Source of the DNA: Pedobacter ghigonis
GTDB lineage: Bacteria > Bacteroidota > Bacteroidia > Sphingobacteriales > Sphingobacteriaceae
DNA length: 64,000 nucleotides
Assembly: GCF_903166585.1 (NCBI RefSeq)
Contig: NZ_CAESCM010000003.1
Span: 372,001 to 436,000 of the forward strand
Direction: 5' to 3'
Positions 2,753-55,565 of the stretch are shown in pieces. Below the pieces are notes generated by a model, which was not told the origin of the DNA, did no database searches, and saw only the letters and a list, made by a program, of their open reading frames with translations. The position numbers were made by a program, and so were the translations under genes. Position 1 is the first letter of the stretch; every line of letters begins with the position of its first letter.

Positions 2753-2855
2753 AACAGATTATGATTTAGTTTATTTTTAAAGAAAAATTTTTGACATAGA
2801 AAGTGGGACCAGATTGCGTTTGCAACCTGGCATTTATCAAAACCCTAAACTTCAG

Positions 2856-3926: not shown

Positions 3927-3945
3927 ATACTATTTGTAAAATTTA

Positions 3946-4836: not shown

Positions 4837-4850
4837 GAGCGTACTTCGAT

Positions 4851-5570: not shown

Positions 5571-5594
5571 ATATTTTCAAGATTAGTATAGTGA

Positions 5595-7436: not shown

Positions 7437-7438
7437 AA

Positions 7439-8563
7439 CTAATGTTTTATAAGTTCTAGTTTATTATAATAGGCAGCAGCATATTTTGTTGCCGAAATGC
7501 TGATATGGTATTTTGATTTAAAATCGTTTAGGCTATTTTCTTTGATCGATTCTTTATTTTTAAAAAACATCGATGTTTTCAATGCTTCATAATAAGATTT
7601 AACCGTATTGTCTACACTCAAAAATCCGTTAACTCCATGTTCAATCATGTTTTTAATGCCTCCAACCGGAGTACAAACCGAGGTGCAGCCAACAGATAAA
7701 GCTTCAATCAATGAGATTGGCATACCTTCGAAATCACTCGATAAGCAAAAGGCATCAGCTACGCTCAAATAATCTCCAATATTATCTTTTGCACCTAAAA
7801 AGGCTATGAATTTATCGTTATCAACCTTTTTTTGCAGAATATCATATAGTGCTTCATTTTGTACTTCACCAATGATCAATAGTTTACATTTTTGTTTTTC
7901 TGTTTGATTAAAGTATTGAACCGATTCGATTAATAGCTGTTGATTTTTTTCACTTGAAATTCTACCAACATGAACCAAAAGAAAAGCACTTGACTGTGAC
8001 TTGTATTCGGAGACGAGAGCATTGTAGTTACCTGTAGTTTTTAAGCTGTTGCGTCCGTTCTCTATGATGATGTCGTTATTGAGCTGGTAATAATCTTTAA
8101 AAGTTTGACTTCCATTTTTGGAAATGGTAACTGGTACAACCCAGTTATTTTTATATAAAAGCTTTCTAATATTTTTTACTGTGCTATTTGTACACTCTGT
8201 ATTTGCTGTTGAATGGATGGTATGAAAGAACTTAGTAACATGATTAAGTATTCGATACGGTATCGCATATTCAAACGAATTGGTGTGCGTACTCACTATA
8301 TCGGGCTTAACTGCATTTAACCACCTCGTAAGTTTCAAAATAACCTGAAAACTAAAGCCTGGTTTTTTGTTAAATGAATAATAATGAACCCGGTCACTTA
8401 CATCGTTTATAAATGAGTTGGAATCTTCGTTTTCGGCAAGTGATAATAAATGAACCTCATTTTGATCGTTTTTAGCCAGTTCATTACATAAATCAACAAC
8501 AAAACGCTCGGCGCCACCCTTTCCTAATGAGGCAATAATATGTACAATTTTAATTTTATTCAT
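7439..8563 (-). CDS. Glycosyltransferase family 4
   Basis: A 374-residue GT-B glycosyltransferase. The N-terminal acceptor domain begins IVHIIASLGKGGAERFV, the usual GT4 opening. The donor domain has HVGRISSEKNQ near residue 198 and the C-terminal motif EGMPISLIEALSVGC. It probably transfers a hexose or amino-hexose during repeat-unit assembly. The gene lies two bases upstream of asnB, so co-translation is likely. It is a different subfamily from the other two GT4 genes of the locus, which argues for a different linkage. Confidence 0.9.
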   Translation of the reverse strand: MNKIKIVHIIASLGKGGAERFVVDLCNELAKNDQNEVHLLSLAENEDSNSFINDVSDRVHYYSFNKKPGFSFQVILKLTRWLNAVKPDIVSTHTNSFEYAIPYRILNHVTKFFHTIHSTANTECTNSTVKNIRKLLYKNNWVVPVTISKNGSQTFKDYYQLNNDIIIENGRNSLKTTGNYNALVSEYKSQSSAFLLVHVGRISSEKNQQLLIESVQYFNQTEKQKCKLLIIGEVQNEALYDILQKKVDNDKFIAFLGAKDNIGDYLSVADAFCLSSDFEGMPISLIEALSVGCTSVCTPVGGIKNMIEHGVNGFLSVDNTVKSYYEALKTSMFFKNKESIKENSLNDFKSKYHISISATKYAAAYYNKLELIKH

Positions 8564-8618
8564 GATGATAGAGAGAGTCTGAAGGTTAACACCTTATCTT
8601 AAGTACTGGCCTTAAACT

Positions 8619-9593
8619 TTAAGCTTCCTTAATTTTAAGACACATTTTCACAAGACTGGATGGCAACATGTATATGGCTTTTAAGAGCATATATTTCGGA
8701 TAACTTGCTAATGAATTGGTCTCCCTTATTGCTTTGTTGATATAGGCATAAGGTAATTTTTTATCAGAACTAAGTAAATAGGAAGCGTTACCGAGACTTC
8801 TCCAGTAATCTGCCATAAAGTGTGGTTTTGTGGTGGTCTTTGAATTGGTTAAGTATGCTTTAACATGTTCTAATTCTTTATCAACCAGCTCGATACTCAT
8901 ATTTTCAGCATAATTCATTCTTAGTATTTTATTAAACATGAGTTTAGCATTGTTTCGCTTTATAGAACCATTTGGTCCAACCCTGTAATAATACAACAAC
9001 TCTTTTACTACATGTATCTTAGCATTTTTACTGATCATCCGAAGCCATAATTCTCCATCCTGCACGTAATAAAACCTGATATCGTATAATCCCACCTCCA
9101 GCAATTTCTCTTTTTTAACAAAAGCACTTCCGTGAGGAAAGAGTGCCCGATGCTTTAATAAACTTTCTTTATGATCTCTGCACGCCGAAAAACTGACATC
9201 CTGATATACAACATTGCCGAGCAAATCAATTACATAGCAATCAGAGCCAATAACATCTACCCAATCATTTTCTTTTGCAAAATTTAATTGTAGCTCTAAT
9301 CTGTTTGGAGCAGAATAGTCATCAGCATCTTGCCGGGCAATGTATTTACCTTTTGCCAGCAATATGCCTTTGTTTAAAGACTTAGGTAGTCCCAGGTTTT
9401 TTCCATTCTCTATAAATCTGATTCTGCTATCAGTCTTTGCAAATCTCTTACAGATCTCTATAGATTGATCTGTTGAGCCATCATCAATAATTATAAATTC
9501 AAAATCTTTATACGTTTGCGCCAAAATTGAGTTAATCGCCTGATCGAGGTATTGATCAGAATTATAAACCGACATTAAAACAGTAACTTCCAT
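8619..9593 (-). CDS. Glycosyltransferase family 2
   Basis: GT-A inverting transferase of 324 residues. It starts VTVLMSVYNSDQYLDQAI and continues with FIIIDDGSTDQS near residue 35 and the metal-binding RQDADD near residue 89. The C-terminal 100 residues are helical and variable, as in capsule GT2 enzymes. No membrane span is obvious, so it likely acts as a peripheral enzyme on the cytoplasmic side. It is one of two GT2 genes in the locus and is preceded by a 21-base gap from the GT4 gene upstream. Confidence 0.9.
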   Translation of the reverse strand: MEVTVLMSVYNSDQYLDQAINSILAQTYKDFEFIIIDDGSTDQSIEICKRFAKTDSRIRFIENGKNLGLPKSLNKGILLAKGKYIARQDADDYSAPNRLELQLNFAKENDWVDVIGSDCYVIDLLGNVVYQDVSFSACRDHKESLLKHRALFPHGSAFVKKEKLLEVGLYDIRFYYVQDGELWLRMISKNAKIHVVKELLYYYRVGPNGSIKRNNAKLMFNKILRMNYAENMSIELVDKELEHVKAYLTNSKTTTKPHFMADYWRSLGNASYLLSSDKKLPYAYINKAIRETNSLASYPKYMLLKAIYMLPSSLVKMCLKIKEA

Positions 9594-9614
9594 AATTTGA
9601 TTGATTTACGATCA

Positions 9615-10739
9615 TTAAATGTTTGCACTTAAAAACCGACTATAAAAATTCACCTCAGTAATGATGTTTTTAGCGATATCGAAATTTGCTTTAGACCATT
9701 TTAAGGCATTTTTTCCAAGCATTTCTATCTTCGCATCATCTTGTAATAAGTTGCTGATTTCATGCCCAATCGTATCCAGATTTTCTTGATTTGGCGCCTC
9801 GACCATTAAACCATTTATATTATGAGTGATACATTCTCTAATGCCTGGTGCATTCGCCCCAATGCTGGGAATACCACAAGACATTGCTTCTAGCAAAGCT
9901 TTTGGATTTCCTTCAAATACCGATAATATGATTGCACATTTTGCCTGATTGTAATACCTGGGCAAATCGATGTTTTCTACTCTTTCTTTCCAGTCGATTG
10001 ATTTACCACCGTTTGTAGCCTCTTCAACATAATTCCTTAAAGCACCATTGCCTATTATGAGTGTTTTTAGATTAGATTTTTTTACAATCTGCACAATAGC
10101 TTCGATGTTTTTTACTTTGTCCAATCGGCCTACAAATATTAAATCGTAAGTTTTGGGCAATGGCATGGGTTTAAAAACGCCCAGGTTTATGTTATTACTC
10201 ATACACAATATCTTTTTAGGTGTGATATTGTAGTTATTAATAATATAACTGCAAGCTTCGGATGAGGTAGTTAAAATAAGATTGCATAAATGAAAAGCAA
10301 TCCGTTCCTTAATCTTAGTCAGCCACGGAAGTTCTTTAAAATGAGCTATATAATAACCCATTCTTATAATTAATGGAATATTAAAAAAGAACTTCAACCA
10401 TAAACCCATCCATGAAGCTGGAAACTGGTTAGTTTTAGATAAGATGACTTTCTTAAAATCACTCCGATAAATAATTAAAGAGATTAGATTGTAAATCAAA
10501 TTCTGACAGGTAAAAGGAATGTTTTTAGGTATCCAGGATGGCATTTCCAATACCTTAAACCCATCATATTTTGCTACATACTGTTTATCATTACGTCCGT
10601 AGCTGTAAATAATCAATTTAAGGTTTAACTTCAAACATAATCTTTCATAATAATCAAGTTCGCGAGATAGTTGTCCCTGATTGTTCCAGATCTCCAAACT
10701 TATATTAGGTGTCATTAACAATAACAAACTATTTTTCAT
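9615..10739 (-). CDS. Glycosyltransferase family 4
   Basis: A 374-residue GT4-like enzyme. The N-terminal half is divergent, with several hydrophobic stretches (around residues 86-96 and 118-128) that suggest membrane association. The C-terminal half is clear: LIFVGRLDKVKNIEAIVQI near residue 200, and the E-rich motif FEGNPKALLEAMSCGIPSIG near residue 278. It lies just downstream of the initiating sugar-phosphate transferase, so it could add the second sugar, though gene order does not prove this. Confidence 0.85.
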   Translation of the reverse strand: MKNSLLLLMTPNISLEIWNNQGQLSRELDYYERLCLKLNLKLIIYSYGRNDKQYVAKYDGFKVLEMPSWIPKNIPFTCQNLIYNLISLIIYRSDFKKVILSKTNQFPASWMGLWLKFFFNIPLIIRMGYYIAHFKELPWLTKIKERIAFHLCNLILTTSSEACSYIINNYNITPKKILCMSNNINLGVFKPMPLPKTYDLIFVGRLDKVKNIEAIVQIVKKSNLKTLIIGNGALRNYVEEATNGGKSIDWKERVENIDLPRYYNQAKCAIILSVFEGNPKALLEAMSCGIPSIGANAPGIRECITHNINGLMVEAPNQENLDTIGHEISNLLQDDAKIEMLGKNALKWSKANFDIAKNIITEVNFYSRFLSANI

Positions 10740-10785
10740 AAAACAAATGAGGTGGTTAACTGATATATAGATATTATACTATGTT

Positions 10786-11388
10786 TTAATTCGAAATCAT
10801 TCGTCTTAGAGTGAGGAAAATAATTTTGAGGTCAATTGATACATCATGATTGGTAATGTACCTCAGATTATGCTTGATTTTTATTGGGATAATTCGTTGA
10901 ACATAATAATTCTCAGGATCTTCAGCGTTTGCAAGAAGCTCATTTTCATTAAAAAATTCAACTGATGCCCAGTCTGTTATGCCTGGTTTTACCGACAACA
11001 CAAAACGTTGGTTATCGGTATACATATCTACATATTTTCTTACTTCCGGACGTGGGCCTACTAAGCTCATCTCACCGCTTAAAACATTAACTAACTGCGG
11101 TAGTTCATCTAGTTTATACTTTCTAAGCCAATGCCCTACTTTCGTAATTCTGCTATCATTGTTGCCAATAGTTAAAAGGCTGCCCGTTTTTGTGCTGTAG
11201 TACATAGTCCTGAATTTCAACAATTTAAAATCCCGCATATTCCTTCCCACCCTACTTTGCTGAAAAAATATAGGCCCCTTGCTATCCAAAGCCACTAATA
11301 TCATGATCAAGATAAGCAAGGGCAACAATATGATTAAGCCCAGTCCTGATCCAATTATATCCATAATTCTTTTTGCGTCGATTTTCAT
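10786..11388 (-). CDS. Initiating sugar-phosphate transferase (polyprenyl-phosphate, monotopic)
   Basis: A 200-residue transferase of the bacterial sugar transferase family (PglC/WbaP catalytic core). It would start each repeat unit by moving a sugar-1-phosphate onto undecaprenyl phosphate. A single hydrophobic membrane segment spans about residues 9-33. It is followed by LLKFRTM, the catalytic-site block KLDELPQLVNVLSGEMSLVG and GPRPE, then KPGITDWASVEF. The short form lacks the extra N-terminal membrane domain of WbaP. Its start overlaps the stop of the upstream aminotransferase by four bases (ATGA type), a sign of coupled translation. Confidence 0.93.
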   Translation of the reverse strand: MKIDAKRIMDIIGSGLGLIILLPLLILIMILVALDSKGPIFFQQSRVGRNMRDFKLLKFRTMYYSTKTGSLLTIGNNDSRITKVGHWLRKYKLDELPQLVNVLSGEMSLVGPRPEVRKYVDMYTDNQRFVLSVKPGITDWASVEFFNENELLANAEDPENYYVQRIIPIKIKHNLRYITNHDVSIDLKIIFLTLRRMISN

Positions 11389-12647
11389 ACCGCTACAGTG
11401 GTTAAAATTTCAGATTGAAGTGCATTATCCCTTGAAATAAATTGAATATTTACAACGCTAATTAGCGAGGTGATGATAAAATTAATTTCTTCTGCAGTTA
11501 ACTGAGGATAGATTGGAAGGGATATTTCTGTTGCGTAGTTACGATATGCAACAGGATAATTTTTTATATCGTAACCTAAATTTTTAAACACAGTGAGCAT
11601 TGGCATGGGGATGAAATGCACATTTATCGCTATGCCTAGCAAAGCCATATCATCTATTATTTTATCCCTTTGCTCTTCTGTTAATCCTTTAACACGAACA
11701 GGAAACAAGTGATAACAAGATTCCCGGCTTTCGTCAATTAAAGGTGGAGCAATGAACCAGGGTTGACCTTTTAATCCTTGTACATAAAGTTCAGCGATCG
11801 TTTTCCTGGCTGGCAAAATGGTTTGCCAGTATTTTCTGATTTGTGCCAGGCCAATAGCAGCGCAAATATCAGGCATGTTTATTTTCATTCCCGGAAAAGC
11901 AACATCGTAACGCCATCCTCCGCCTTTTGATTTCGCTAATGCATCTTTGTTTTGCCCGTTTAGCGTAAACATTTTCAGATAACTATACTCTTGTTGAGGT
12001 ATAAACTGTTTTGGCAGGTTTAAACAAATGCAACCGCCTTCTGCCGTGGTTATATTTTTTACTGCATGAAACGAAAATATAGTAACATCGCTTTTTTTAG
12101 CTGCTTGTTGACCATCGTATCTGCTACCAATAGAATGGGCCGCATCAGAAATTAATAAAATTCTGCCTAGCTTGTTTTGATTCTCGCTATTTGGGACAAA
12201 TTTTTTGGTAACTGAGGGCGATTTAATAATAGCTTTTAAGGAATTGTAATTACAAGGCCAACCGGCAAAATCTACCGCAATTACGGCCTTTGTTTTAGAT
12301 GTAATTGCTTTCCTAACCTGCTCAGGATCCATGTTAAAATCATCCATAACATCGACCATTACAGGCCTGGCACCACAATGCAACACACTTAAAGCAGTTG
12401 CACAATAGGTATAAGCAGGCACAATTACTTCGTCGCCGGGACCTACACCGAACCACTTTAACATCAACATGGCTCCCGATGTCCATGAGTTTACACAAAT
12501 TGCGGCATCACATCCTGTCAGTGTTAAAATTTCTTGTTCAAAGTCCCTCACTTTGGGGCCAGTCGTGATCCATTTGTTATTAAGTGTATCCAATACTTGA
12601 TCGATAACTGATTGATCGATATACGGTGGTGAAAATGGAATATTCAT
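11385..12647 (-). CDS. DegT/DnrJ/EryC1/StrS sugar aminotransferase
   Basis: PLP-dependent aminotransferase of nucleotide-sugar ketones. I place the start at the ATG giving MNIPFSPPYID, the normal family N-terminus. The frame stays open upstream to 12704 but those 19 residues look non-coding. Key segments are the donor-binding VNSWTSGAMLML, ISDAAHSIGSRYDG, and FHAVKNITTAEGG, whose Lys (about residue 194) should form the Schiff base. ArnB/PseC-type relatives aminate 4-keto-6-deoxy sugars. No 4,6-dehydratase is present in the window, so the keto sugar must come from elsewhere. About 420 residues from this start. Confidence 0.9.
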   Translation of the reverse strand: MNIPFSPPYIDQSVIDQVLDTLNNKWITTGPKVRDFEQEILTLTGCDAAICVNSWTSGAMLMLKWFGVGPGDEVIVPAYTYCATALSVLHCGARPVMVDVMDDFNMDPEQVRKAITSKTKAVIAVDFAGWPCNYNSLKAIIKSPSVTKKFVPNSENQNKLGRILLISDAAHSIGSRYDGQQAAKKSDVTIFSFHAVKNITTAEGGCICLNLPKQFIPQQEYSYLKMFTLNGQNKDALAKSKGGGWRYDVAFPGMKINMPDICAAIGLAQIRKYWQTILPARKTIAELYVQGLKGQPWFIAPPLIDESRESCYHLFPVRVKGLTEEQRDKIIDDMALLGIAINVHFIPMPMLTVFKNLGYDIKNYPVAYRNYATEISLPIYPQLTAEEINFIITSLISVVNIQFISRDNALQSEILTTVAV

Positions 12648-12750
12648 AGCGCTTATATAGTTTTTTGGTTTAAAATGTTGATGACAGGAAAAATTAATCA
12701 ACAATTACTTTGGGACGACAGGGTAATAAAACGGGAAACTGAAAGGGGAA

Positions 12751-13971
12751 TCAGGATACTTTTAGCGTATCTTGTTTCTTTGATTTGAGATTGTATAAGT
12801 GCAATACACTAAAGTATAAAAACAAGGTAGGCCCACATCCACTACCTAAAAGCCATTCGTTATGAAATAGAGCATTGATGGAGATAGCCAAAAATGAAAG
12901 GCAAAGGCAAACTAAAAGCGCGTAATCTTTATCCTTCAGGTGCGATAGCGCAATCCATGTAATTTTAATAATCTTTCGGTAGATAACGAAGAGTAGTCCT
13001 CCTCCTAAAACCAGACCTAAATAGGTTATGAACATTAAATAAGAGTTGTGAGAAGTAACCAAACCGCTTTGGCCTATTCTGAAAACCGGATTACGCCCGG
13101 CAACATCCTCCCAGGTTTTATCTGCAAAGATTAAACCGTAAGGGTTAGCGACAAGTATTTTAATGTTTTCGCCCATTAAATCACCTCTATCGCCATCTGA
13201 TGACCTTTCGTTTTTTGAAAGAATATTTTCTTTTCTTCCGGAGGAAAGATCATCTATGGTAGTTCTAAAACTAAAGGCAACAATTGCAAGAAACCCGAAG
13301 ATAAAAACAACTTTATGTTTAAAATATAAAAGCCAAAAAAGGATAACTGAGGCACCAACGGCAACTACCGCTGATCGATTCATACCGTATAAAATAATAT
13401 ACGCGCTCAGTCCCAGTGCCAACAATCCTACAGCTATCTTTTGTTTGTAAACAGTTACGGCAACAATTGCAAAACTACATAATGCAGCGATCTGGTATCC
13501 AAATGAAAAGATATTTGTTGAAATACCCGATGGCGACTGAACTATAAATTCGCCACCTTTTAACAAACTGCGCAAGCTATCTCCCCGTGAAGGCATGTAA
13601 TGGTTAAGTACCATCACCAGAGATGAAAAAGCGAGTAAAGCGTAGAAAATTATAATCGATTGTTTAAAGCGATGATAATCTGAAGCAACCACGTAGTTAA
13701 AGTACAGCGCGCAAACCATTACAACAACGATTACAACTGAAAAGTACTTAACATCCTGATAGCCTAGAACATATAAAAAAAAGGCAGCTACAAAAAGTAC
13801 AATTACCTCTGTTTTATAAATGAATACCTCTTCTAAGGGTTTTGCCGTTAAAAAAAGCAGCGGCAAGCCAAACAAAAGTGGGTTTGGCAGTAGTTTTATC
13901 ATAAATATATTGAATGTTAAAGTATATAAATACAAAAACATCAACAGTAAAATTGCCGCTTTCGGAATCAT
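12751..13971 (-). CDS. Wzy-like O-antigen/capsule polymerase
   Basis: A 406-residue integral membrane protein with roughly ten to twelve hydrophobic spans and a large hydrophilic loop around residues 235-300. That loop contains SDGDRGDLMGENIKILVANP and TSHNSYLMFITYLGL, the kind of periplasmic loop and HNSYL pattern seen in the Wzy/WaaL ligase family. It would join repeat units on the periplasmic face after flipping. It is the only polymerase candidate in the locus and follows a GT2 gene by 28 bases. Sequence identity in this family is low, so the call rests on topology, the loop motif and context. Confidence 0.78.
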   Translation of the reverse strand: MIPKAAILLLMFLYLYTLTFNIFMIKLLPNPLLFGLPLLFLTAKPLEEVFIYKTEVIVLFVAAFFLYVLGYQDVKYFSVVIVVVMVCALYFNYVVASDYHRFKQSIIIFYALLAFSSLVMVLNHYMPSRGDSLRSLLKGGEFIVQSPSGISTNIFSFGYQIAALCSFAIVAVTVYKQKIAVGLLALGLSAYIILYGMNRSAVVAVGASVILFWLLYFKHKVVFIFGFLAIVAFSFRTTIDDLSSGRKENILSKNERSSDGDRGDLMGENIKILVANPYGLIFADKTWEDVAGRNPVFRIGQSGLVTSHNSYLMFITYLGLVLGGGLLFVIYRKIIKITWIALSHLKDKDYALLVCLCLSFLAISINALFHNEWLLGSGCGPTLFLYFSVLHLYNLKSKKQDTLKVS

Positions 13972-13999
13972 TGTAGTAAGCTAAAATTTTGAAAAACAA

Positions 14000-14863
14000 T
14001 TAAAGTAGTTGACTGATGGTATTGTAAGCGTTCTTAATTTTGAAATCTCTAATCTGAAATAAGAAATACTTCCTTAAGTAGATTTTTAGTAACCCTTTTT
14101 TTTGGTATGATGAGTATTTGAAACTATCAATAAGTATATTAAAATCGTTTATCATTTTTCGTTTTCTGATCTTCGGATCGATCATACTCCAGATCCCACC
14201 GGGATGGATTCTATAACAACTCATTATTTTGGGCCATACGTAAAGTTTGAGGCCACTGGTGGAGGTGATATAAAGCTTTAAAAAATTGTCTATTGCGATT
14301 ACTTTATCAACCGACTGACTAGCCCCAAAATTTTTAAATTCATCTGTTGCCCGGAACACTAACGAGGAAGTACGCGTTTCTTCTTTTTTTCCAATCAAAA
14401 AATCATCGAATGTATATTCTAATGGAACAATATTCTTTGCCACGTAACAGGTTTCATCCTTATCATCTATTACTCTGGAGTAATGACTGCAGGCAACGAA
14501 ATCTTGATTATCTTTTAAAAAATCAACCTGTTTTTGAAGTTTATCAGCATCTGTCCAATAGTCATCGCCATCGCAAAAAGCTAAATATTTACCTGTAGCA
14601 TTTTTCAACACATTGAGCAGGTTTTTTACTCCACCAGCATTTTTTTCGCCCGATAATATTTTGATTAAATCAGGATGCTTGCTTTGATAGTTTTGGATAA
14701 TTTGTCTGGTATTATCTGTAGAATAATCCTCTCCTATTAAAATTTCAATTTTAAAATCGGTTTTTTGCAGCAAGAATCCCTCAATAGCCTGTGCTATGTA
14801 TTTTTCCTGGTTATAAGTTATACAACAAACACTTACTGTTATTTCGTTATTTAAACTTTCCAT
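14000..14863 (-). CDS. Glycosyltransferase family 2
   Basis: A 287-residue GT-A enzyme. The N-terminus reads VSVCCITYNQEKYIAQAIEG, then ILIGEDYSTDNTRQII near residue 40, and the metal-binding FCDGDDYWTDADKL near residue 97. The ITYNQE and GDDYWTD forms are typical of capsule and lipopolysaccharide GT2 transferases of the Bacteroidota. It lies five bases downstream of an aminotransferase gene. The acceptor sugar is unknown. Confidence 0.9.
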   Translation of the reverse strand: MESLNNEITVSVCCITYNQEKYIAQAIEGFLLQKTDFKIEILIGEDYSTDNTRQIIQNYQSKHPDLIKILSGEKNAGGVKNLLNVLKNATGKYLAFCDGDDYWTDADKLQKQVDFLKDNQDFVACSHYSRVIDDKDETCYVAKNIVPLEYTFDDFLIGKKEETRTSSLVFRATDEFKNFGASQSVDKVIAIDNFLKLYITSTSGLKLYVWPKIMSCYRIHPGGIWSMIDPKIRKRKMINDFNILIDSFKYSSYQKKGLLKIYLRKYFLFQIRDFKIKNAYNTISQLL

Positions 14864-14868
14864 TATAA

Positions 14869-16056
14869 TTAGTTAGGTCTTGTGCCGTTGATTGATTGCT
14901 CTAATTGCCTGGTAATTAACATCCCATAATTTTCAACGGTCTGCTCATTTCTTTCAGGCACCAGTTTAGGTACTTTGAAGTAGTTTTGTGTCCTTAACAT
15001 GGTTCTGCAGATAAAATCTATGTCTGAATTGGTGAGCTTGTGATAGAGTGGTAAGCAGACCACTCTTTTTACCACCGAGTCGCACACGGGCATGGCTACG
15101 TTATTTACATAAGGCAGTCCTGACAATGAAGGGTAAAAGTATCTGCGACAATAGATCTTATTCAACTCCAGTTTTTCAAGGCAGGCATGCATTAATTCCT
15201 CACTATCGAAAATGATAGGCAAATACGCAAAGTTATAGGTGCTTTCATTATTAATTTTTTGAAAGCTACATTGCAAATTAGTTAAGCGACTTAAGTAATG
15301 TAATGATAATGCCTTCCTTCTTTCTAATATTTCGTCTACACATTCCAAATTGCATAAGCCCATAGCAGCATGAACTTCGCTGTTTTTGCCGTTTATTCCT
15401 GCACAAGAGTAGGAATCGATGCCGCTAATACCAAAATTTCTGATTGCTGCCATTTTCTTCAAAAGATCAGCGTCTTTGGTAAAGACTGCACCGCCCTCTA
15501 TGGTATGGAAGAGCTTGGTTGCATGAAAACTGGTTATGCTGATGTCGCCATATTCAAAAACAGATTTGTTTTTATATTTTGTACCAAAACAATGTGCTGC
15601 ATCATAAATAACTTTTAAAGAATACTTATCTGCAATAGCCTGAATTGCATCTATATCGCATGGATTTCCATACACATGTGTTGCCAGTATGGCTGTAGTT
15701 CTCGGCGTTATTGCTGCTTCTATCTGCTTAGGATCAATATTAAAAGTTTCCGAATCAATATCTACGTATACCGGTGTACACCCCTGCCAAATAATGGTAT
15801 TTGTTGTAGCTACAAAAGAAAATGGTGTTGTAATAATTTCACCCTCTAACTCAAGTGCCTTAATTGCAATTTGCAAAGCTATTGTACCATTAGACAGGTA
15901 CAATAAATGATCTAAACCGAGGTAATCTTTCAATTTCAACTCTAGATCATTAACTAGCGGACCATTGTTGGTTAGCCATTCTCTATCCCAAATGCTATTC
16001 ACATAGCTAAGGAAATTCTCTTGTTTAGGGAGAAAAGGTTTAGTTACTGGTATCAT
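14869..16056 (-). CDS. DegT/DnrJ/EryC1/StrS sugar aminotransferase (VioA/FdtB-like)
   Basis: PLP-dependent sugar aminotransferase of 395 residues. The opening IPVTKPFLPKQENF with WLTNNGPLV resembles the VioA/FdtB branch, which aminates dTDP-4-keto- or 3-keto-6-deoxyhexoses. The core has FSFVATTNTI, VIYDAAHCFGTKY, and SFHATKLFHTIEGGA with the Schiff-base Lys near residue 180. Its start overlaps the flippase stop by four bases. Two different DegT enzymes in one locus suggest two amino sugars, or one diamino sugar, in the repeat unit. The precise substrate is an inference. Confidence 0.9.
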   Translation of the reverse strand: MIPVTKPFLPKQENFLSYVNSIWDREWLTNNGPLVNDLELKLKDYLGLDHLLYLSNGTIALQIAIKALELEGEIITTPFSFVATTNTIIWQGCTPVYVDIDSETFNIDPKQIEAAITPRTTAILATHVYGNPCDIDAIQAIADKYSLKVIYDAAHCFGTKYKNKSVFEYGDISITSFHATKLFHTIEGGAVFTKDADLLKKMAAIRNFGISGIDSYSCAGINGKNSEVHAAMGLCNLECVDEILERRKALSLHYLSRLTNLQCSFQKINNESTYNFAYLPIIFDSEELMHACLEKLELNKIYCRRYFYPSLSGLPYVNNVAMPVCDSVVKRVVCLPLYHKLTNSDIDFICRTMLRTQNYFKVPKLVPERNEQTVENYGMLITRQLEQSINGTRPN

Positions 16057-17495
16057 CTTTTGAAAATTAAGTTTGTGAAATCTGTTATCGCATTCATTTT
16101 TATTAAATAGCTCACTCCCAGATAGACTGTGAAATAAAAACCACTTATGATTAATATTTCGAGTGCGGTTATTAAGATGAAATGTTTTGTTAAAAACACA
16201 TCAAGAGCATAGCTAAAGGCACCAACGATTATTGAAAGTAAAATGGTTGGTAAAAAATCAAGAACCTGTTCTTTAAAATGGTAATTGATTAGCTTTCCAC
16301 TGTAAATCGTATTGAGGTAGTAGCTGAAAAAATTGAAAAATAATTGAAAATAAAGCAGGCCATATATACCAAAAGACAGCACACCGAAAATACCGAGAAC
16401 ACTAAGCGATTTTTTGATAAACTCTAAACGTAAAAGAGAATCACTACGTCCTTTTACCTTTAAAATATTTAGATTAAAAGATTGTATAGGATAAATAATA
16501 CCTGATATGCATAAGATTTGAAAATATGGAACTGCAGGCAACCATTTTTCGGTTAAAACAAGACGAAAAAGAGGTTCAGCAATTATGCATAGCAGAATCA
16601 AAATCGGAGCAATCCAAAAAATAAGTTGCTGTATAAGCCTTTTATTTACTGCCTTAAGTTTATGGTCATCATCCGCAATCTTTGAAAACATTGGATAAGT
16701 AACGGTATTAACGGTTGATGATATAATGCCAATAGGCAATTGACTCATTGAATCTGCCCGCGAATAAAAACCAAGTTGTGTAGCAGAATAATATTTCCCA
16801 ATAATTAAGGTGTAAATATTTTGGTAAACTGTATTCAACAAGCCCGAAAGGGTCATCTTGTATCCAAAATGAAAGTGTTTTTTAAAACTACTGTAATCAA
16901 ACACAAATGTTGGTCGCCAGTCTGAATAAATCCAATGCAATACGGTGGATAAAAGCGAAGTCATTAAATTCATCCATACCAGGCTCCAAACCCCGTAGCC
17001 CATTTTTGCTAAAACAATCCCCACTATCCCTCCGCCAATTGATGCAGGAAGTTGTATGTTGGTTTGTGTTTTAAAATCCATGTTTTTAACCAGACATGCA
17101 CTTTGGATACAAAAAAAACCGTTAATAATTAGCGTCAATCCATACACCCTTACTATTTTGATGAGTATAAGATGATCGTAAAATGAGGCTATTGCCGGAG
17201 CTGCAAAAAATAGTATTAGATAAATAACACAGCTGCCTATGAGGTTAAAAAAAAAAACTGTACTGAATTCCTGCTGGCTGGCATCAGCAGTTCTAATTAA
17301 CGACGAACTTAAGCCGCTATCTGTTAAACTATTGCCTAATGCTACCAGTACAGAAAGCATGGCTATCAAGCCAAATTCTGCTGGCACCAATAACCTTGCA
17401 AGTACAATTGTTATTAAAAAACTTATAAGCTTTGTGCCAAATTGCTGACCAACTGACCATATAATACCCGAAAGCGTTTTTTCTTTTAAGCTCAT
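16053..17495 (-). CDS. Wzx-type oligosaccharide flippase (WzxC-like)
   Basis: A 480-residue polytopic membrane protein of the MOP/PST exporter superfamily, with about 12-14 predicted spans. The N-terminal block TLSGIIWSVGQQFGTKLISF followed by VLARLLVPAEFGLIAM and SGLSSSLIR is characteristic of the WzxC/TuaB branch. It would flip the undecaprenyl-diphosphate-linked repeat unit to the periplasm. The gene starts six bases after the dehydrogenase stop and overlaps the next aminotransferase. Together with the Wzy-like and Wzc-like proteins it makes the locus a Wzx/Wzy-dependent system rather than an ABC-transporter one. Confidence 0.92.
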   Translation of the reverse strand: MSLKEKTLSGIIWSVGQQFGTKLISFLITIVLARLLVPAEFGLIAMLSVLVALGNSLTDSGLSSSLIRTADASQQEFSTVFFFNLIGSCVIYLILFFAAPAIASFYDHLILIKIVRVYGLTLIINGFFCIQSACLVKNMDFKTQTNIQLPASIGGGIVGIVLAKMGYGVWSLVWMNLMTSLLSTVLHWIYSDWRPTFVFDYSSFKKHFHFGYKMTLSGLLNTVYQNIYTLIIGKYYSATQLGFYSRADSMSQLPIGIISSTVNTVTYPMFSKIADDDHKLKAVNKRLIQQLIFWIAPILILLCIIAEPLFRLVLTEKWLPAVPYFQILCISGIIYPIQSFNLNILKVKGRSDSLLRLEFIKKSLSVLGIFGVLSFGIYGLLYFQLFFNFFSYYLNTIYSGKLINYHFKEQVLDFLPTILLSIIVGAFSYALDVFLTKHFILITALEILIISGFYFTVYLGVSYLIKMNAITDFTNLIFKR

Positions 17496-17501
17496 GATCT
17501 T

Positions 17502-18800
17502 TTATAAGCGAGCATTCACAAATTCAATGGGCAAATGCGATTTTATATCATAAACTACCGCATCAGTTTTACATAAACTTTTAAGATCTAAATCATTAAA
17601 TTCCTGATGGGCTACTGCTAGTAAAACACCATCGTATTGACGATTTATCGATTCCCGGTCTTCACAAACAACACCATAATGAGTTCTGGCTTGTTCAGCA
17701 TCTGCCCAGGGATCATGAATAGTTACCTTAACTTTATATTCCTGTAGTTTTCTAACAATGTCTATTACTTTGGTATTGCGTATATCAGGGCAGTTTTCTT
17801 TAAAGGTGAATCCTAAAATCAACACTTCAGATCCAATGATACACTTGCCATTATAAACCATTTTTTTGATCAACTGTGCCGCTACATAAGCGCCCATACC
17901 ATCGTTAACGCGACGGCCGGCAAGTATAATTTCGGGGTGATAACCAATTTCCTGAGCCTTTTGAGCCAGGTAATATGGATCTACACCAATACAGTGACCT
18001 CCAACTAAACCTGGTTTAAAATTCATGAAATTCCATTTCGTTCCGGCAGCTGCAAGTACCTCGGACGTATCTATGCCTAACTCGTTAAAAATCATGGCCA
18101 GTTCGTTTACAAAAGCAATATTAATGTCGCGTTGGGCATTTTCAATTACTTTGGCAGCCTCTGCAACTTTAATGGAAGATGCCTTGTAGGTTCCTGCATT
18201 TATAATTGATTTATACAGTTCATCTATTTTTGTGGCCGCTTCGGGAGTAGAACCCGAGGTTACTTTTCTAATGTTGGCAACAGTATGTTGTTTATCTCCC
18301 GGATTAATACGTTCAGGAGAATAGCCTACAAAAAAATCTTCATTGAACACTAGTCCTGATTCTTTGGCCAGAACCGGTACACAATCTTCTTCTGTTGCAC
18401 CCGGGTATACGGTTGATTCGTAAACCACGATATCGCCTTTTTTAAGAACGCTACCTACAAGCAGGCTTGCTTTAATTAGCGGTGTTAAATCAGGACGGTT
18501 ATTTTTGTCAACCGGCGTTGGCACTGTAATTATGTACACTTTACAAGAGCTCAATTCATCCGTTTTGTTGGTACAAAACAGCCCTTTTGGTGTACTACAA
18601 CTAAAGCTCAGTACTTTATTAAGCGTTGATTCGTCTATCTCTAAAGTGGAATCATTACCCGCGTTGAGCTCATTAATCCGGCGTTCAAGTATATCAAAGC
18701 CAACAACTTTATTTTGTTTCGCAAATTCTACTGCTAGTGGCAGGCCAACATATCCCAGCCCTATCACAGCCATTTTTATAGGTTCTAGTGTCTGTTGCAT
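17502..18800 (-). CDS. UDP-N-acetylhexosamine/UDP-sugar 6-dehydrogenase (TviB/WbpO-like)
   Basis: Nucleotide-sugar dehydrogenase of 432 residues that oxidises C6 of a UDP-sugar to a carboxylate with two NAD+. The N-terminal Rossmann motif is [15 protein letters not shown] at about residues 12-26. The catalytic Cys is in [13 protein letters not shown] near residue 268. The C-terminal UDP-binding domain contains [17 protein letters not shown]. The overall pattern is that of TviB/VipA (UDP-GlcNAc to UDP-GlcNAcA) rather than UDP-glucose dehydrogenase. The start overlaps the antiterminator gene by 16 bases. An internal ATG nine codons later would also fit. Confidence 0.9.
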
Positions 18801-19342
18801 AATTGTGTAGATTGAATATTGGTTTTTACAATTTGGTTAACTGGGATCTGGGTGATCAATGCGCACTCAAGGTGGTCGAAGCACATGAGCACATTCTGGC
18901 CCTGCACTTTTATTATATTACCTTCAAGGTTATGAAACAGACCGCTTTTAATTCTTACTCTATCGCCTGCAGAAAGACCATCCAAGCTAACAACCCGTAC
19001 ATCGTTATAATTTTTTACTACTTCTTTTAGTTGCTCAATCTCTGTGTCTCTAATCACCGCTGGTTTCCCCATGAAATAGACATAATTCATCACCCCCATT
19101 GTGTAGCGTACTTTGGTGAGTTCTCTGTCGTCTATCCGAACAAAAACATAACCATTAAATAAAGGTGTAGACACCATTTTTTTTCTGTCAGCCCACTGGT
19201 TTTGTACCGTTGTTACAGGGCAAAAACTCTCTATGCCTTGTTCTTGCAACAATTGATCAGTTTTTTTTTCCCAGCGCGGCCTAACATAAATCACAAGCCA
19301 TTTTTTGTCTAAGGGCCTTCTGCCCGGAATTTGAGGATTCAT
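18785..19342 (-). CDS. UpxY/NusG-family transcription antiterminator
   Basis: A 185-residue specialised NusG paralogue. The NGN domain is at about residues 13-115: [20 protein letters not shown], then [12 protein letters not shown] and [18 protein letters not shown]. The KOW domain is at about residues 122-170 ([21 protein letters not shown]). In Bacteroides, UpxY proteins ride with RNA polymerase and let it pass terminators in the leader of their own capsule operon. This gene is the first of the downstream biosynthetic run and is preceded by a 367-base leader with repeats, which fits that model. Housekeeping NusG would lie in a ribosomal-protein operon, which is not the case here. Confidence 0.9.
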
Positions 19343-19709
19343 TTTGTTGATTTAATTAATGAATAGTTAAACTTAGATTGTTCCCCGGCCTGCGTAGCGC
19401 CTTTATTAGATGATAAAAGCATTGGTGATATTTATCGTTAAATTATATGGCTTCGCCATATCACTTACAGCAACATTTTTTTTGGGGCGGGAAACTTAAT
19501 TGGTAATCTGGTATTGATTGGTATTGGTAATCTGGTACTAACTGGTATTCGTAACTTGGTATTATTAATCTGGTAGTTATTCGATTTCGGTGGTTAGTTT
19601 TACCTACCCGTAATCACAGTATGGTTTATTCGGTGTTACTATTTTTTTATTCAACTAGATTTATTGGACCTCACAAACAATAAGTTTGATTGGCCTATTA
19701 AAATATTGT
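19343..19709 (-). promoter_or_regulatory. Leader region of the antiterminator-led capsule operon
   Basis: A 367-base stretch without a gene separates the kinase from the antiterminator. It holds a GGTA-rich tandem repeat at 19500-19575: two 24-base copies of TTGGTAATCTGGTA plus spacer begin at 19500 and 19524, and two diverged copies follow at 19548 and 19562. It also holds a perfect 7-bp inverted repeat with a three-base loop at 19445-19461 (ATATGGC/GCCATAT). No strong rho-independent terminator follows the kinase stop. Given the UpxY paradigm this is the natural place for the antiterminator to load, but that function is inferred. Confidence 0.5.
19500..19575. repeat. GGTA-rich 24-base tandem repeat
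   Basis: The 14-base core TTGGTAATCTGGTA occurs exactly at 19500-19513 and 19524-19537, then as variants at 19548-19561 (TTCGTAACTTGGTA) and 19562-19575 (TTATTAATCTGGTA). The first three cores are spaced 24 bases apart. Further GGTA words fill the spacers. I see no similar array elsewhere in the window. Confidence 0.85.
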
Positions 19710-22001
19710 CTAATTTGTCATGGCATAGCCATAACCACTATAGTTATATTTCTGATTTTTATCCCGTTTGGCATCATTAAAAACCACTAATAGATTTTTA
19801 AGTTTATTTTCCTCACTAATATCTTTTAAGATGGATAGCTGATAATTTTTGGTATAATTATACCTCACCAGATAAATACTTACATCAACATAAGAGGCCA
19901 AACTAAAAGCATCTGCTACCTGGCCTACGGGTGAGGTGTCGATAATTATATAATCAAACCGATCTTTTAAAGTATCGATAAGTTCACCTACTCTTTCACT
20001 CATCATTACCTCAGCCGGCGATTGAGGGATTTCACCGCAACCAATAACACTTACATTTTCGCTTGCTGTAACGGGTTGAATAATGTCCTCAAGACTAATT
20101 TTTTCATTTGTTAAGTAATCTGACAATCCTACTGCTGAGGATAGCTTTAGATTATTCAATAGTGCCGGTCTCCTTAAGTCAAATTCAAGGATGACAACTT
20201 TTTTATCCAGCATACCTAAAGTAGTTGCCAAATTGATACTAAAAAATGTCTTGCCCTCTCCTTTCATACTAGAGGTTACTAAAATCACCTTATTACTGCC
20301 TTCTCTGGTCATGAAACCAAGGTTCATTCTAATGTATCTAAACAGTTCTGATATAGTAGAGCGGTTATCGCGTTGAAAAACGTTTGTTTGTTTATCAAGA
20401 TTATGAGAAAGTTCACCCAACATTTTTGCTCCGGTTAACTCAATACTTCTTGCATCTTTTACCGTATTATTAAAGAAACCTCTCACATATATGATACTTG
20501 CCGGTACAAAGCAACCGAATAAGAAACCACATAAATAAAGTACATTGGTTTTTGGCGATTCTGGTATAGTGTTGTAAGCAGGCTTATCAATAATCTGAAA
20601 TGTAGGCACTGTAGTAGATAAAGACAAGGCAGTTTCTTCACGTTTTTGAATTAAATACTGATATATACCAGATTTTACACTTTGTTTACGGCTTAATTCC
20701 AGTAGTCCACGTTCCAAAAACGGCACAGCTTTACTTTTACCCTTATATTGAGAATAATTGGCAAGTATACCACTGCGTTCAATTTCGTACCCGTTTTTAA
20801 TGGAATTCAGGTTTTCCAGGATATTTGCTTTTAAGCTTGATAACTGGCCATTTAAGTTAAGTACCAGTGGATTTTCTGCACTTGCTGTACGCAACATCCG
20901 GTTTCTTTCTAACTGCAATTCGTTAAACTTTGCAATCATTACGTTTAATACCGGATCTTTGATTCCCATTGCACTGGGTGCTAATGAACTCTCTCCTTGT
21001 CTGCTATTAAAATATTTTTCTATTGATCTGATCAGGTTTAACTGAGTTGTTGACGAAGACAACATTTGATCGTATTCGGATGATCTTGAATTATTGAGTT
21101 GTGCATCTATACTAACATCAGAGATTTGATTCTGTTGTTTGAAGCTTTCGATGTTCTTTTCTGTGCCAGACAGATCGCTAACTAAAGATTTTAACCTGTC
21201 ATCTATAAATTTAATGGTATTTTGGGCAATTACTTGTTTGCTGGTATTAATGTGATTATCATATTCCTGTATTAATTCAGTTAATATATCAACACCCCGC
21301 TGTGTTAAATTATCATTTATACTTATCACAACTGTATTTGCATCTTTAACTACAGGAAATATTTTAAGATTGGCCAAACTATACGACTCGGTTAATGCGT
21401 ATAAATCTCTGAATTTAACGGATATATCACCAAAGTCTTGCGTGTAGGCCAAGCCTTTATTAACTCTTATAGAAAAATTCGGAGTCTGTATCACTGAGCC
21501 ATATGGTACAACTACACTTTTTTGATTATCAACAAATCTAAATAGCGAGTCGCTGATACCTGCAATACTGATGTTTCTTGCATAAGCACTGCTTTTTAGA
21601 TTAAGTACCTCAACATTTACTGGTAGCGTTTTACCATAAAGCTCTATAGTTTTATAGTTCACTTTCTTATGATAAGTTGTTTCCAGATTCAGTTTGCTTA
21701 AAACTTTATAGATTAAGTCTCTTGATTTTAAAATTTCTATTTCATTGTCAACAGTTTTCACCGTTTGAAACATATTTAATTCGCTGAATGCCGTTGTGTT
21801 AGACATTGCGGCTCCATTTTTATCATCTTGTATAAGTAATGTACTACTTATCTTATACTGTGGCGAGGTAAGATATATTTTCCCATAAACAAATGCTAAT
21901 GAAGCAATTATGCAAATTAGAAAATATGGCCAGTTTTTAGCAAACCTTTCGAAGGTTTTAGTAAAATCGTTTAAGCCGTTTAAATTTTGTACCGATCTCA
22001 T
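19710..22001 (-). CDS. Wzc-like polysaccharide co-polymerase and tyrosine autokinase
   Basis: A 763-residue inner-membrane protein that controls chain length and export. A Wzz domain follows the first membrane span (about residues 28-47). A long coiled-coil periplasmic part leads to a GNVR-like region, and the second span is near residues 485-510. The cytoplasmic BY-kinase domain has Walker A SSMKGEGKTFF near residue 580, Walker A' VVILEFDLRRP, and YIIIDTSPVGQVADA. The C-terminus has a Tyr cluster (Tyr752, 754, 757, 759) as autophosphorylation sites. It lies 18 bases after the exporter gene. Phosphorylation cycling of that tail is known to govern capsule assembly in this family. Confidence 0.94.
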   Translation of the reverse strand: MRSVQNLNGLNDFTKTFERFAKNWPYFLICIIASLAFVYGKIYLTSPQYKISSTLLIQDDKNGAAMSNTTAFSELNMFQTVKTVDNEIEILKSRDLIYKVLSKLNLETTYHKKVNYKTIELYGKTLPVNVEVLNLKSSAYARNISIAGISDSLFRFVDNQKSVVVPYGSVIQTPNFSIRVNKGLAYTQDFGDISVKFRDLYALTESYSLANLKIFPVVKDANTVVISINDNLTQRGVDILTELIQEYDNHINTSKQVIAQNTIKFIDDRLKSLVSDLSGTEKNIESFKQQNQISDVSIDAQLNNSRSSEYDQMLSSSTTQLNLIRSIEKYFNSRQGESSLAPSAMGIKDPVLNVMIAKFNELQLERNRMLRTASAENPLVLNLNGQLSSLKANILENLNSIKNGYEIERSGILANYSQYKGKSKAVPFLERGLLELSRKQSVKSGIYQYLIQKREETALSLSTTVPTFQIIDKPAYNTIPESPKTNVLYLCGFLFGCFVPASIIYVRGFFNNTVKDARSIELTGAKMLGELSHNLDKQTNVFQRDNRSTISELFRYIRMNLGFMTREGSNKVILVTSSMKGEGKTFFSINLATTLGMLDKKVVILEFDLRRPALLNNLKLSSAVGLSDYLTNEKISLEDIIQPVTASENVSVIGCGEIPQSPAEVMMSERVGELIDTLKDRFDYIIIDTSPVGQVADAFSLASYVDVSIYLVRYNYTKNYQLSILKDISEENKLKNLLVVFNDAKRDKNQKYNYSGYGYAMTN

Positions 22002-22019: not shown

Positions 22020-22781
22020 TTATCTATTCAAAACTGATGAGATTAATAACGCTACAGCTGATAAAGAAGCGATTACTATTGGCATCGTACGGGTATTCGA
22101 ACTAAACTCTACACTTTTTGATTTATCTGGCTCCACATAAACAATATCGTTCTGCTTTAATGTGAAATACGGCGAATTCAGTACATCCCTGCTATTGAGA
22201 TTAAGCCTCTTCATAATTCGATTTCCGTTTTCTTCTCTTATTATCAAAACATTGTTTCGTTTGCCATAAACAGTCATATCCCCAGCCATTCCAAGAGCCT
22301 CTAGTAAATTTATCCCATCTCCCGATATAGTGAAACTAGATGGGTGGTTTACTTCTCCGATTACTGTAACTTTGAAATTCACAATTTGAACATCTACAAT
22401 TGGCGTTTTTACATACTTCACCAATTTCATTGATAGCATGTCCTGTGCCTCGGCAACTGTTAAGCCCTCAACTTTGACATTTCCTAATACCGGAAAATTA
22501 ATTTCACCATTTTTGTTTACGGTTTGTCCTGCTCCCTTAGCAAATTCGCTGGCCGAAACATTGACCCCTGTATTGTTGGCGAATAAAACATTAGACTCCT
22601 GACTTTGGCTACTTACATTAATTCGAAGTACATCCTTTTGTTGAATCTTTATTGGTTGGTTATCGATTTTTTTCGCGTTAGTTTCATTAGCCAAATCGCT
22701 AAAGTAAACCAGATTTCTTGCACCCCCACATCCGCATAAAAGCACGATGCATAAGATGGATAAAAAAGATAAGTGTTTCAT
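22020..22781 (-). CDS. Wza-like polysaccharide export outer-membrane lipoprotein
   Basis: A 253-residue lipoprotein with signal peptide and lipobox LLCGC (Cys18). The polysaccharide export domain is at about residues 45-130 (DVLRINVSS, GEINFPVLGNVKVEGLT). A SLBB domain follows with FKVTVIGEVNHPSSFTISGD. Near the end are DIVYVEPDKS and a short hydrophobic segment. It forms the periplasm-spanning or outer-membrane exit with the Wzc-like partner encoded next to it. It is the first gene of the locus, so its promoter should lie in the 1.4-kb region upstream, although I could not pick out a clear TTTG/TAnnTTTG pair there. Confidence 0.93.
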   Translation of the reverse strand: MKHLSFLSILCIVLLCGCGGARNLVYFSDLANETNAKKIDNQPIKIQQKDVLRINVSSQSQESNVLFANNTGVNVSASEFAKGAGQTVNKNGEINFPVLGNVKVEGLTVAEAQDMLSMKLVKYVKTPIVDVQIVNFKVTVIGEVNHPSSFTISGDGINLLEALGMAGDMTVYGKRNNVLIIREENGNRIMKRLNLNSRDVLNSPYFTLKQNDIVYVEPDKSKSVEFSSNTRTMPIVIASLSAVALLISSVLNR

Positions 22782-24193: not shown

Positions 24194-25300
24194 ATGAAAA
24201 GAATTCTGATCATTGAAAATAATGCAGACTTGTTGTCAAGTTATACAGAAATCCTAACAAAAACAGGATTTGAAGTACTTATCGCTCTTTATGGTGATAC
24301 AGGAATAAATGAGGCTATAACGAAAGTACCTGACTTGATTTTATGCAACACTTTAATACCACACATTGATGGATTTGGTGTGTTAGCTGTTCTTTCTAAG
24401 AATTCGGCAACCGCGCACATTCCATTTATATTTGTTAGCCACACAGCTAAATCAACAAACTTTAGAAAAGGAATGGATATGGGTGCTGATGATTTCATTA
24501 CTCGTCCTTTTCGCGACAATCAATTGATTAAGGCTGTAGAAGCAAGACTCATCAAATCAAAATCACGCGTTGATGCCAGTCAGTCGTTACCCGAATCGTC
24601 TGATAACAAATTTCTCATTGAAAAAGGCATAGATCAACTCCAGGAAACTATTCTGCAAAGCAATTTTAGGCGAATAAAAAAAAAGCAGGTTTTATACTCC
24701 GAAGGTGATTACAACCAGGGTATTTATTTCTTGAAAGAAGGATGTATTAAAACCTTTAAGGTAAATAGTGATGGCCGACAGTTGATCACAAACATATACA
24801 ACAGCAACAGTTTAATCGGATTGGGTTATTTAATGATAGATGGTCCACTTGGCGAAAGTGCCGAAGCAGTTGAATATTCTTCAGTTTATTTTATAGCAAA
24901 AAAAACAATTTTAGATTTACTAAAAGCAGATACCAATCTTAACCATTACATTATCCGGATGTTATCTAGTGATTTGGCACATAAAAATGATCGGTTGGTT
25001 GAATTAGCATACGAGTCGGTTAGAAAAAGACTTTCAAAAATAATTATCCAATTAAATAAAAATTCTTTTCCAATTAATGAAGTAGAAATTTCTAGAGACG
25101 AACTTGCAGGGCTAGCTGGAACAGCTACTGAAACGGTAAGCAGAATATTGACTGATTTTAAGCAACTGGGCTTGATAAAAAGAAACGGAAATTTCATCAA
25201 TATTACTAATTATGAAGGATTAAGTAGAAGTTCAAATATATTATTCATGCTGCCTTTTTTTGAAGTATTTTGCGAATTTGTAAATCATATTTTACGCTAA
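24194..25300 (+). CDS. Pseudo-receiver fused to Crp/Fnr-type transcription regulator
   Basis: A 368-residue fusion. Residues 1-120 are a CheY-like receiver, about 150-265 a cyclic-nucleotide-binding-like sensor (LYSEGDYNQGIYFLKEGCIK), and about 290-340 a Crp helix-turn-helix (DELAGLAGTATETVSRIL). The receiver is degenerate. The acidic pair is Glu8-Asn9, the phosphoacceptor position is Asn52 (LILCNTLIP), and the conserved Lys is Arg104 (FITRPF). Ser82 is kept. Phosphorylation therefore looks unlikely, and the domain may act in dimerisation or ligand binding. The sensor lacks an obvious cAMP-binding cassette and the four Fnr cysteines. It precedes the stress-protein gene by 69 bases on the same strand and may control it. 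Confidence 0.87.
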   Translation: MKRILIIENNADLLSSYTEILTKTGFEVLIALYGDTGINEAITKVPDLILCNTLIPHIDGFGVLAVLSKNSATAHIPFIFVSHTAKSTNFRKGMDMGADDFITRPFRDNQLIKAVEARLIKSKSRVDASQSLPESSDNKFLIEKGIDQLQETILQSNFRRIKKKQVLYSEGDYNQGIYFLKEGCIKTFKVNSDGRQLITNIYNSNSLIGLGYLMIDGPLGESAEAVEYSSVYFIAKKTILDLLKADTNLNHYIIRMLSSDLAHKNDRLVELAYESVRKRLSKIIIQLNKNSFPINEVEISRDELAGLAGTATETVSRILTDFKQLGLIKRNGNFINITNYEGLSRSSNILFMLPFFEVFCEFVNHILR

Positions 25301-55395: not shown

Positions 55396-55565
55396 TCTTC
55401 ATTTCATTAAATACTGCCCTAAATGAGGATTACGCATTGGTCGGTGAGGACACCAACCAATAGAGAAAGTATTTAGTTAAACTCTTCATTTCATTAAATA
55501 CTGTCCTAAATGAGGATCGCGCACTGGTCGGTGAGGACACCAACCAATAGACAAATACTTTAGAT
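55396..55565 (+). repeat. Two tandem copies of an 87-base hairpin repeat
   Basis: Copies begin at 55396 and 55483 (period 87). Each carries TTGGTCGGTG/CACCAACCAA with loop AGGA (nine of ten pairs) inside an outer AAATACT/AGTATTT-like pairing. They fill most of the 247-base gap between the small membrane gene and the radical SAM gene. The rest of the gap shows nothing else. Confidence 0.8.

Follow-up and report, generated by a model that had tools for sequence, protein, structure and literature searches.

The leader that separates wzc from upxY in the capsule locus studied here probably carries an ops-like pause-and-recruitment element for the antiterminator UpxY, which the protein would recognize as a hairpin in the non-template DNA combined with an upstream half-site. 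We place the likelihood of this reading, which is built on sequence comparison, at roughly 0.7. The core of the element, TGTAAGTGA-TATG-GCGAAGC, occupies positions 19450-19469 on the minus strand of the window (the whole 64,000-nt stretch of DNA analyzed), where it is the sole match at up to three mismatches (0 expected). Its full form, TGTAAGTGA-nnnn-GCGAAGC-YnTR (19469-19446, minus strand), lies 240 nt past the wzc open reading frame (ORF) and 107 nt ahead of the upxY start. It comprises the half-site TGTAAGTGA (19461-19469, minus strand), a member of the TGTRASTGA family, and a GC-GAA-GC mini-hairpin with a GNA loop (19450-19456, minus strand). In this lineage the mini-hairpin is extended by a 7-bp inverted repeat (19445-19461, minus strand) whose arms, ATATGGC (19445-19451) and GCCATAT (19455-19461), flank a 3-nt loop; the transcribed strand reads ATATGGC-GAA-GCCATAT. 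The predicted pause places the RNA 3′ end at the T at 19447, with 19446 as the next nucleotide (minus strand).

All genes of the locus are read from the minus strand. The first encodes a wza-type polysaccharide export protein (22020-22781, domain scan) and the second a wzc-type chain-length tyrosine autokinase (19710-22001, domain and profile scans). The leader follows, filling exactly the 367-nt gap between two ORFs (19343-19709), then upxY (18785-19342), a NusG-paralog antiterminator gene encoding 185 amino acids, and a UDP-sugar dehydrogenase gene, the first biosynthesis gene, whose ORF (17502-18800) overlaps the end of upxY. Further capsule genes (1637-17495) are presumably transcribed by UpxY-bound polymerase in what we take to be an operon; the part of their ORFs that was scanned includes a flippase, an aminotransferase, glycosyltransferases, an asparagine-synthase-like protein and an epimerase. 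The antiterminator thus sits third, behind the export genes, as the initial annotation of this DNA had proposed, and the 367-base leader with a GGTA-rich 24-base repeat and a 7-bp hairpin that it described is likewise found. No upxZ lies between upxY and the dehydrogenase gene in the window; the UpxZ model PF06603 matched in 0 of 296 genomes, this one (about 5.9 Mb) included, and control genomes gave no match to it either. No TAnnTTTG promoter match was found on the coding strand between 19300 and 19760, an absence that says little. Plasmid records held no match to upxY and its leader. The window has no Rfam match at the gathering threshold and, at a lax threshold, just one snoRNA hit (E 2.8) on the other strand. 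Divergent from wza lies a gene (24194-25300) for a response regulator receiver fused to a cNMP-binding domain and a Crp-type HTH, a possible regulator of the capsule promoter. Elsewhere in the window, positions 55396-55563 hold an 87-nt tandem repeat (1.9 copies, 91% match).

Assignment of the 18785-19342 product to the UpxY family is firm: it scores 142.5 bits against NF033644 (cut-off 100) and matches PF02357, while the RfaH, NusG and LoaP models stay below their respective cut-offs. An AlphaFold2 model shows a NusG-like N-domain and a beta C-domain. Residues 128-173 are modeled as beta strands with a pLDDT lower than the overall mean of 80.9, in a setting where fold switches may escape prediction. 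Residues W15, Y19, E25, K27, P42, W50, D52, R53 and K55, among others, are invariant in a 34-sequence UpxY alignment. Judged by eye, UpxY has no obvious conserved basic set corresponding to the ops-reading residues of RfaH.

The element recurs before upxY genes throughout the genus. Among the best 30 of all same-genus UpxY matches, chosen by protein similarity, GCGAAGC is present within 300 nt upstream of upxY in 30 of 30 leaders, against 0.17 expected from shuffles and 0/30 on the reverse strand. The proposal that this leader holds a loading or pausing site for UpxY is well supported by comparison, through the hairpin element. The consensus in these leaders is close to TGTAAGTGATATRGCGAAGCYNTR, with TGTRACTGAGGT replacing TGTAAGTGATAT in some of them. 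The T at the predicted pause is found in 43/45 cases, even though the search did not impose it; one element (L024) has no T at +22. Fourteen of the 30 leaders hold two elements 72-86 nt apart, and in one (L050) the second GCGAAGC is not an element. A degenerate pattern run over 144 same-genus genomes returned 77 sites in 51 genomes, one to three per genome, and its reversal none. The element occurs in 49 of 56 genomes with a strong UpxY (at least 114 bits) as opposed to 2 of the 88 others (Fisher 3e-28), and in both of these exceptions it lies just downstream of a weaker-matching UpxY. Where a distinct UpxY has an element nearby (86 cases), the element is upstream in 76 and downstream in 10. 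The half-site appears to follow the UpxY tree (9 letter changes versus 31.6 in shuffles), a pattern to be read with the reservation that relatedness alone can cluster such labels.

A more conspicuous feature of the leader is the GGTA-rich 24-nt tandem repeat (19499-19584; strand unspecified), TACC-rich when read on the transcribed strand, which the initial annotation had put forward as a possible site of UpxY loading or pausing whose copy number might tune expression. The repeat is real: positions 19499-19564 hold 2.8 copies of period 24 (83% match, score 90), and a third, less exact one follows at 19561-19584. Both exact copies of the 14-mer core, TTGGTAATCTGGTA, that the genome contains lie in the leader; with up to two mismatches the genome count rises to 158 (61 for the reversed pattern), and a looser TACC pattern falls in 5 places (reversal 0). 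At up to two mismatches, the core is present in three copies here and in a single copy in the relative whose UpxY resembles this one most (90%), and is missing from the 28 remaining leaders of 29 other same-genus ones. A search with the leader DNA against 145 same-genus genomes points the same way. Five genomes had a match, this one included; three of the four others matched over 23-38 nt at the hairpin, and the relative just mentioned, the fourth, over the second half of the leader. Several other leaders (e.g., L036, L038-L040) do contain TACC clusters above simple shuffles, indicating that the leader region tends to be TACC-rich without the core. On this comparison, and by the test that the initial annotation had itself set, we reject the repeat as the recruitment site, and a loading role for it with expression tuned by copy number has next to no chance of being correct. 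The repeat looks lineage-local, and what aligning the leaders for its core brought out as conserved is the adjoining hairpin. Number does vary between leaders, but it is the number of elements, one or two, that does so. A striking repeat can mislead when the conserved piece beside it is shorter and less conspicuous.

In other Bacteroidota, the element takes the form TGTRASTGA-N4-GCGNAGC-YNTR. A scan of named genomes matched at least 119 stretches, of which 80 loci were analyzed. By title these are mostly Bacteroidota (Pedobacter, Mucilaginibacter, Chitinophagaceae, Bacteroidales and others) with a few metagenome-assembled genomes (MAGs) labeled as other phyla, and the same element and neighborhood are seen in many named Pedobacter records. 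These 80 loci carry 87 sites. At 44 of them a same-strand UpxY open frame starts between -300 and +600 nt; another 8 are no more than 700 nt from an end, and for the remainder the stretch (up to 8 kb) has UpxY elsewhere (7) or not at all (28). The bases that follow GCGAAGC lay outside the search pattern; since they are conserved nevertheless (in 85 sites, Y at +20 in 83, T at +22 in 84 and R at +23 in 73), the sites are not chance matches. The MAG sites labeled Deltaproteobacteria, Kryptoniota, Methylotenera, Thermodesulfobacteriales and Dadabacteria (L095, L108, L116, L124 and L128, the last with a UpxY-like ORF within the stretch) reflect either spread beyond Bacteroidota or misbinned contigs.

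Leaving loop and spacer open in a scan of 296 genomes of the class yielded 43 sites in 36 genomes, and 0 with the reversed pattern. The loop was GAA in 34, GGA in 6, GTA in 1 and something else in 2, that is, GNA in 41/43. We also read 110 class-level UpxYs (L206-L315; 30 loci and 80 more, taken from among the matches over the cut-off). The full element stands within 600 nt upstream in 21 of the 110 (1 on the reverse strand) and GCGNAGC in 35 (5 reverse), which assigns the element to a part of the UpxY family; many UpxYs thus use another signal or a site elsewhere. An element with a GNNA loop was looked for before the same genes and rejected: it was found with the half-site in 0/110, and the bare GCGNNAGC occurred in 7 forward and 8 reverse. 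In 88 class-level leaders lacking GCGAAGC, enriched k-mers included TGTGACTGA (6 forward, 0 reverse) among many A+T-rich words, and this word led to the GGA and GTA loop variants. Ten UpxYs without an upstream element were read on their downstream side, where three (L375-L377) have the element just downstream and seven have none by pattern; the stretches of L377 and L378 end at contig ends.

Consensus pause sites have the spacing G-10, Y-1, G+1. The arms and loop GC-GNA-GC, in 41 of the 43 open-loop sites, stand with a G and a T at the -10/-1 spacing, an architecture that appears to be of the ops type. In the ops oligonucleotide, GGCGGTAGCGTG, C3 pairs with G8 around a G4-A7 loop and the pause falls at U11 (PMC5995543); it follows from this sequence and pairing that ops contains GC-GNNA-GC. 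When the leading GG of GGCGGTAGCGTG and GGCGAAGCYGTG are aligned, the near-invariant T of the UpxY element coincides with U11 of ops. The ops sequence itself is not matched, GGCGAAGCCATA standing in its place here and GGCGAAGCYGTG being commonest elsewhere. Extraordinary stability is known for DNA mini-hairpins that close a GNA or GNNA loop with two or more G-C pairs; GCGAAGC melts at 78 degrees (PMC4686876). With its DNA parameters, ViennaRNA returned -2.3 kcal/mol for the window's form, -1.7 for GGCGGAGCCGTG and -0.9 for ops, and 0 kcal/mol both for the commonest form, GGCGAAGCTGTG, and for GGCGTAGCTGTA; these parameters seem to lack a bonus for GNA loops. Because some variants score 0, the case that every variant folds rests on the cited measurements.

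The same hairpin might act as RNA, with UpxY or a partner binding the nascent transcript in the way that LoaP binds dfn, a mode of recruitment that does exist (PMC12691694). The stem does reach 7 bp in this lineage, and the R12/Y20 pairs at the 87 sites (A-T 19, G-C 27, G-T 39, G-G 2, A-C 0) fit G-U wobble. We nevertheless regard an RNA site as unlikely, though a serious rival. Among the 41 GNA sites, 24 lack a standard or G-T pair at 11/21 and five have T12-C20 (all five in one genome). In addition, the predicted pause would put the hairpin bases inside the RNA-DNA hybrid, so that the DNA strand alone would stay free, and an RNA hairpin leaves both the unpaired TGTRASTGA and the near-invariant T unexplained. 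What the wider sites have in common is reduced to GC-GNA-GC, and we lean toward DNA rather than RNA being read; the class of the loop, the half-site and the spacing of the pause all argue for DNA.

The hairpin could also be a terminator or attenuator that UpxY overcomes after being recruited elsewhere; Bacteroides UpxY proteins are described as preventing premature termination within their leaders (PMC7819879). In the window the hairpin is not followed by a U-run, and the unpaired half-site belongs to what is conserved, both of which make this account very improbable as a replacement for recruitment at the element, although the two roles are not mutually exclusive.

The element is also found at operons where upxY does not come next. 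A second capsule locus of the same genome has the order wza, wzc, upxY2, element (TGTGACTGAAAGGGCGAAGCTGTG) and asparagine-synthase-like gene, with glycosyltransferase, ABC-transporter, acyltransferase and Wzt-type genes beyond. The half-site beside this second UpxY is TGTGACTGA, and in both loci the element forms the boundary between wza-wzc and the repeat-unit genes. The upxY2 arrangement recurs in three genomes of the window's own family, the family to which L375-L377 belong. In nine same-genus genomes a second site lies 26-29 kb away in convergent orientation, a tenth (in G125) being on another contig, and all ten are followed by a UDP-sugar dehydrogenase gene; these are element-bearing operons without an adjoining upxY.

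In all, 64 of 105 sites were listed as not directly followed by upxY. Eight of them have no ORF before the end of the stretch, three (L123, L140, L146) do have upxY, and 53 were scanned, using at 8 of the 53 the second or third ORF as the first was short. The 53 include kin, ten representing one same-genus arrangement (L346-L355) and four coming from one genome (L358-L361), and L158 and L352 are apparently one site counted twice. A polysaccharide-type gene comes next at 33 of the 53: wza, wzz, UDP-sugar dehydrogenase, epimerase or glycosyltransferase in 31, and an asparagine-synthase-like gene in 2, one of them that of the genome's own second locus. At three (L101, L137, L151), upxY is the next gene but one. 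The other 20 genes are non-polysaccharide or have no Pfam match; they include two T2SSF, integrase, helicase, Schlafen, AAA_15, NOV_C and PDDEXK genes, two sulphate-metabolism genes, a carbamoyltransferase and 6 without a Pfam match.

A Schlafen-type, NOV_C, UvrD/DEAD helicase, AAA_15, integrase or PDDEXK gene follows the element at L101, L119, L120, L121, L136 and L137, which may hint that control by NusG paralogs extends to defence or mobile genes. A T2SSF gene lies directly after the site at L108 and L109. One genome (G385) has five sites by the open-loop pattern; at four of these (L358-L361) no recognized polysaccharide gene comes next, the neighbors being DUF7003, a secreted protein with a sorting tail and two proteins without a Pfam match. 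Sites before integrase, helicase, Schlafen or AAA genes would also suit an operator of an ordinary DNA-binding regulator, or a repeat dispersed by mobile elements, that happens to lie before capsule genes. Such an origin is improbable for an element that the same-genus scan finds one to three times in a genome, placed on the coding strand before upxY in every one of the 30 same-genus leaders (21 versus 1 reverse at class level) and linked to both the presence and the phylogeny of UpxY.

In the ops-like scheme that we favor, RNA polymerase would halt at a consensus-type pause once GGCGAAGCCAT has been transcribed (3′ end at 19447). The exposed non-template strand would fold into the GC-GAA-GC mini-hairpin on the polymerase surface, to be read by UpxY, which probably also reads the TGTAAGTGA half-site in the adjacent upstream DNA. 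UpxY would then bind in the place of NusG and stay on through some 17 kb of biosynthesis genes. With wza and wzc placed ahead of the site, expression of the export genes would not require UpxY. Expression of upxY and of the repeat-unit genes would, which we propose gives positive feedback on upxY.

More tentatively, and with the odds somewhat against it, one code may recruit NusG paralogs in distant phyla. An extraordinarily stable mini-hairpin in single-stranded DNA (GNNA in RfaH-ops, GNA for UpxY) would occupy the same place in a consensus pause, and a separate upstream half-site (TGTAAGTGA or TGTGACTGA) would tell apart the paralogs present in one cell; the same code would let UpxY work in trans at further polysaccharide operons and at certain defence or mobile genes. 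The restriction to GNA loops, set beside the GNNA of ops, makes it possible to test sharply and at low cost whether NusG paralogs generally read DNA mini-hairpins. The 24-nt consensus lets likely UpxY targets be listed for these genomes, including operons that do not encode upxY.

A literature search of limited reach returned no recruitment sequence for UpxY-family antiterminators outside Bacteroides. Recruitment in Bacteroides has reportedly been published already (Saba et al. 2024), UpxY being said to read non-template DNA and upstream duplex DNA at the pause. This account fits a two-part element, which makes the class of mechanism a known one. Unless that study gives them as well, the Bacteroidota consensus, the GNA loop rule and the register match to ops are added here.

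The closest parallel to the UpxY element is ops of E. coli, the site of RfaH, which was as of 2020 described as the only such protein with a detailed mode of recruitment (Wang et al. 2020, PMC7593976). Both are coding-strand elements in a transcribed leader, with a small hairpin between the bases of a consensus pause and the T and next base in the same register, and ops too recruits a NusG paralog (PMC5995543, PMC7819879). They differ in the loop, GNNA (GGTA) in ops and GNA in the UpxY element (commonly GGCGAAGCYGTG), in the extra conserved half-site TGTRASTGA 4 nt upstream, in the frequent position of the UpxY element beside the regulator's own gene, and in the protein family concerned. Like the Bacteroides leaders, the present one would be acted on by a UpxY-family protein encoded in the same operon, but upxY is third here and is followed by the UDP-sugar dehydrogenase gene with no adjoining upxZ, unlike the UpxY/UpxZ gene order featured in PMC12632263, and the element sequence is defined for Bacteroidota other than Bacteroides. 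LoaP of Bacillus is likewise a NusG paralog with a leader hairpin, dfn; this, however, is bound as RNA and is described as causing no discernible pause (PMC12691694). Finally, the P1 promoter oligonucleotide of the phage N4 virion RNA polymerase, a "hairpin DNA promoter", contains GTTGCGAAGCAAC, the same GCGAAGC mini-hairpin (PMC12633501), put there to a different use: promoter recognition by a phage polymerase, an unrelated protein.
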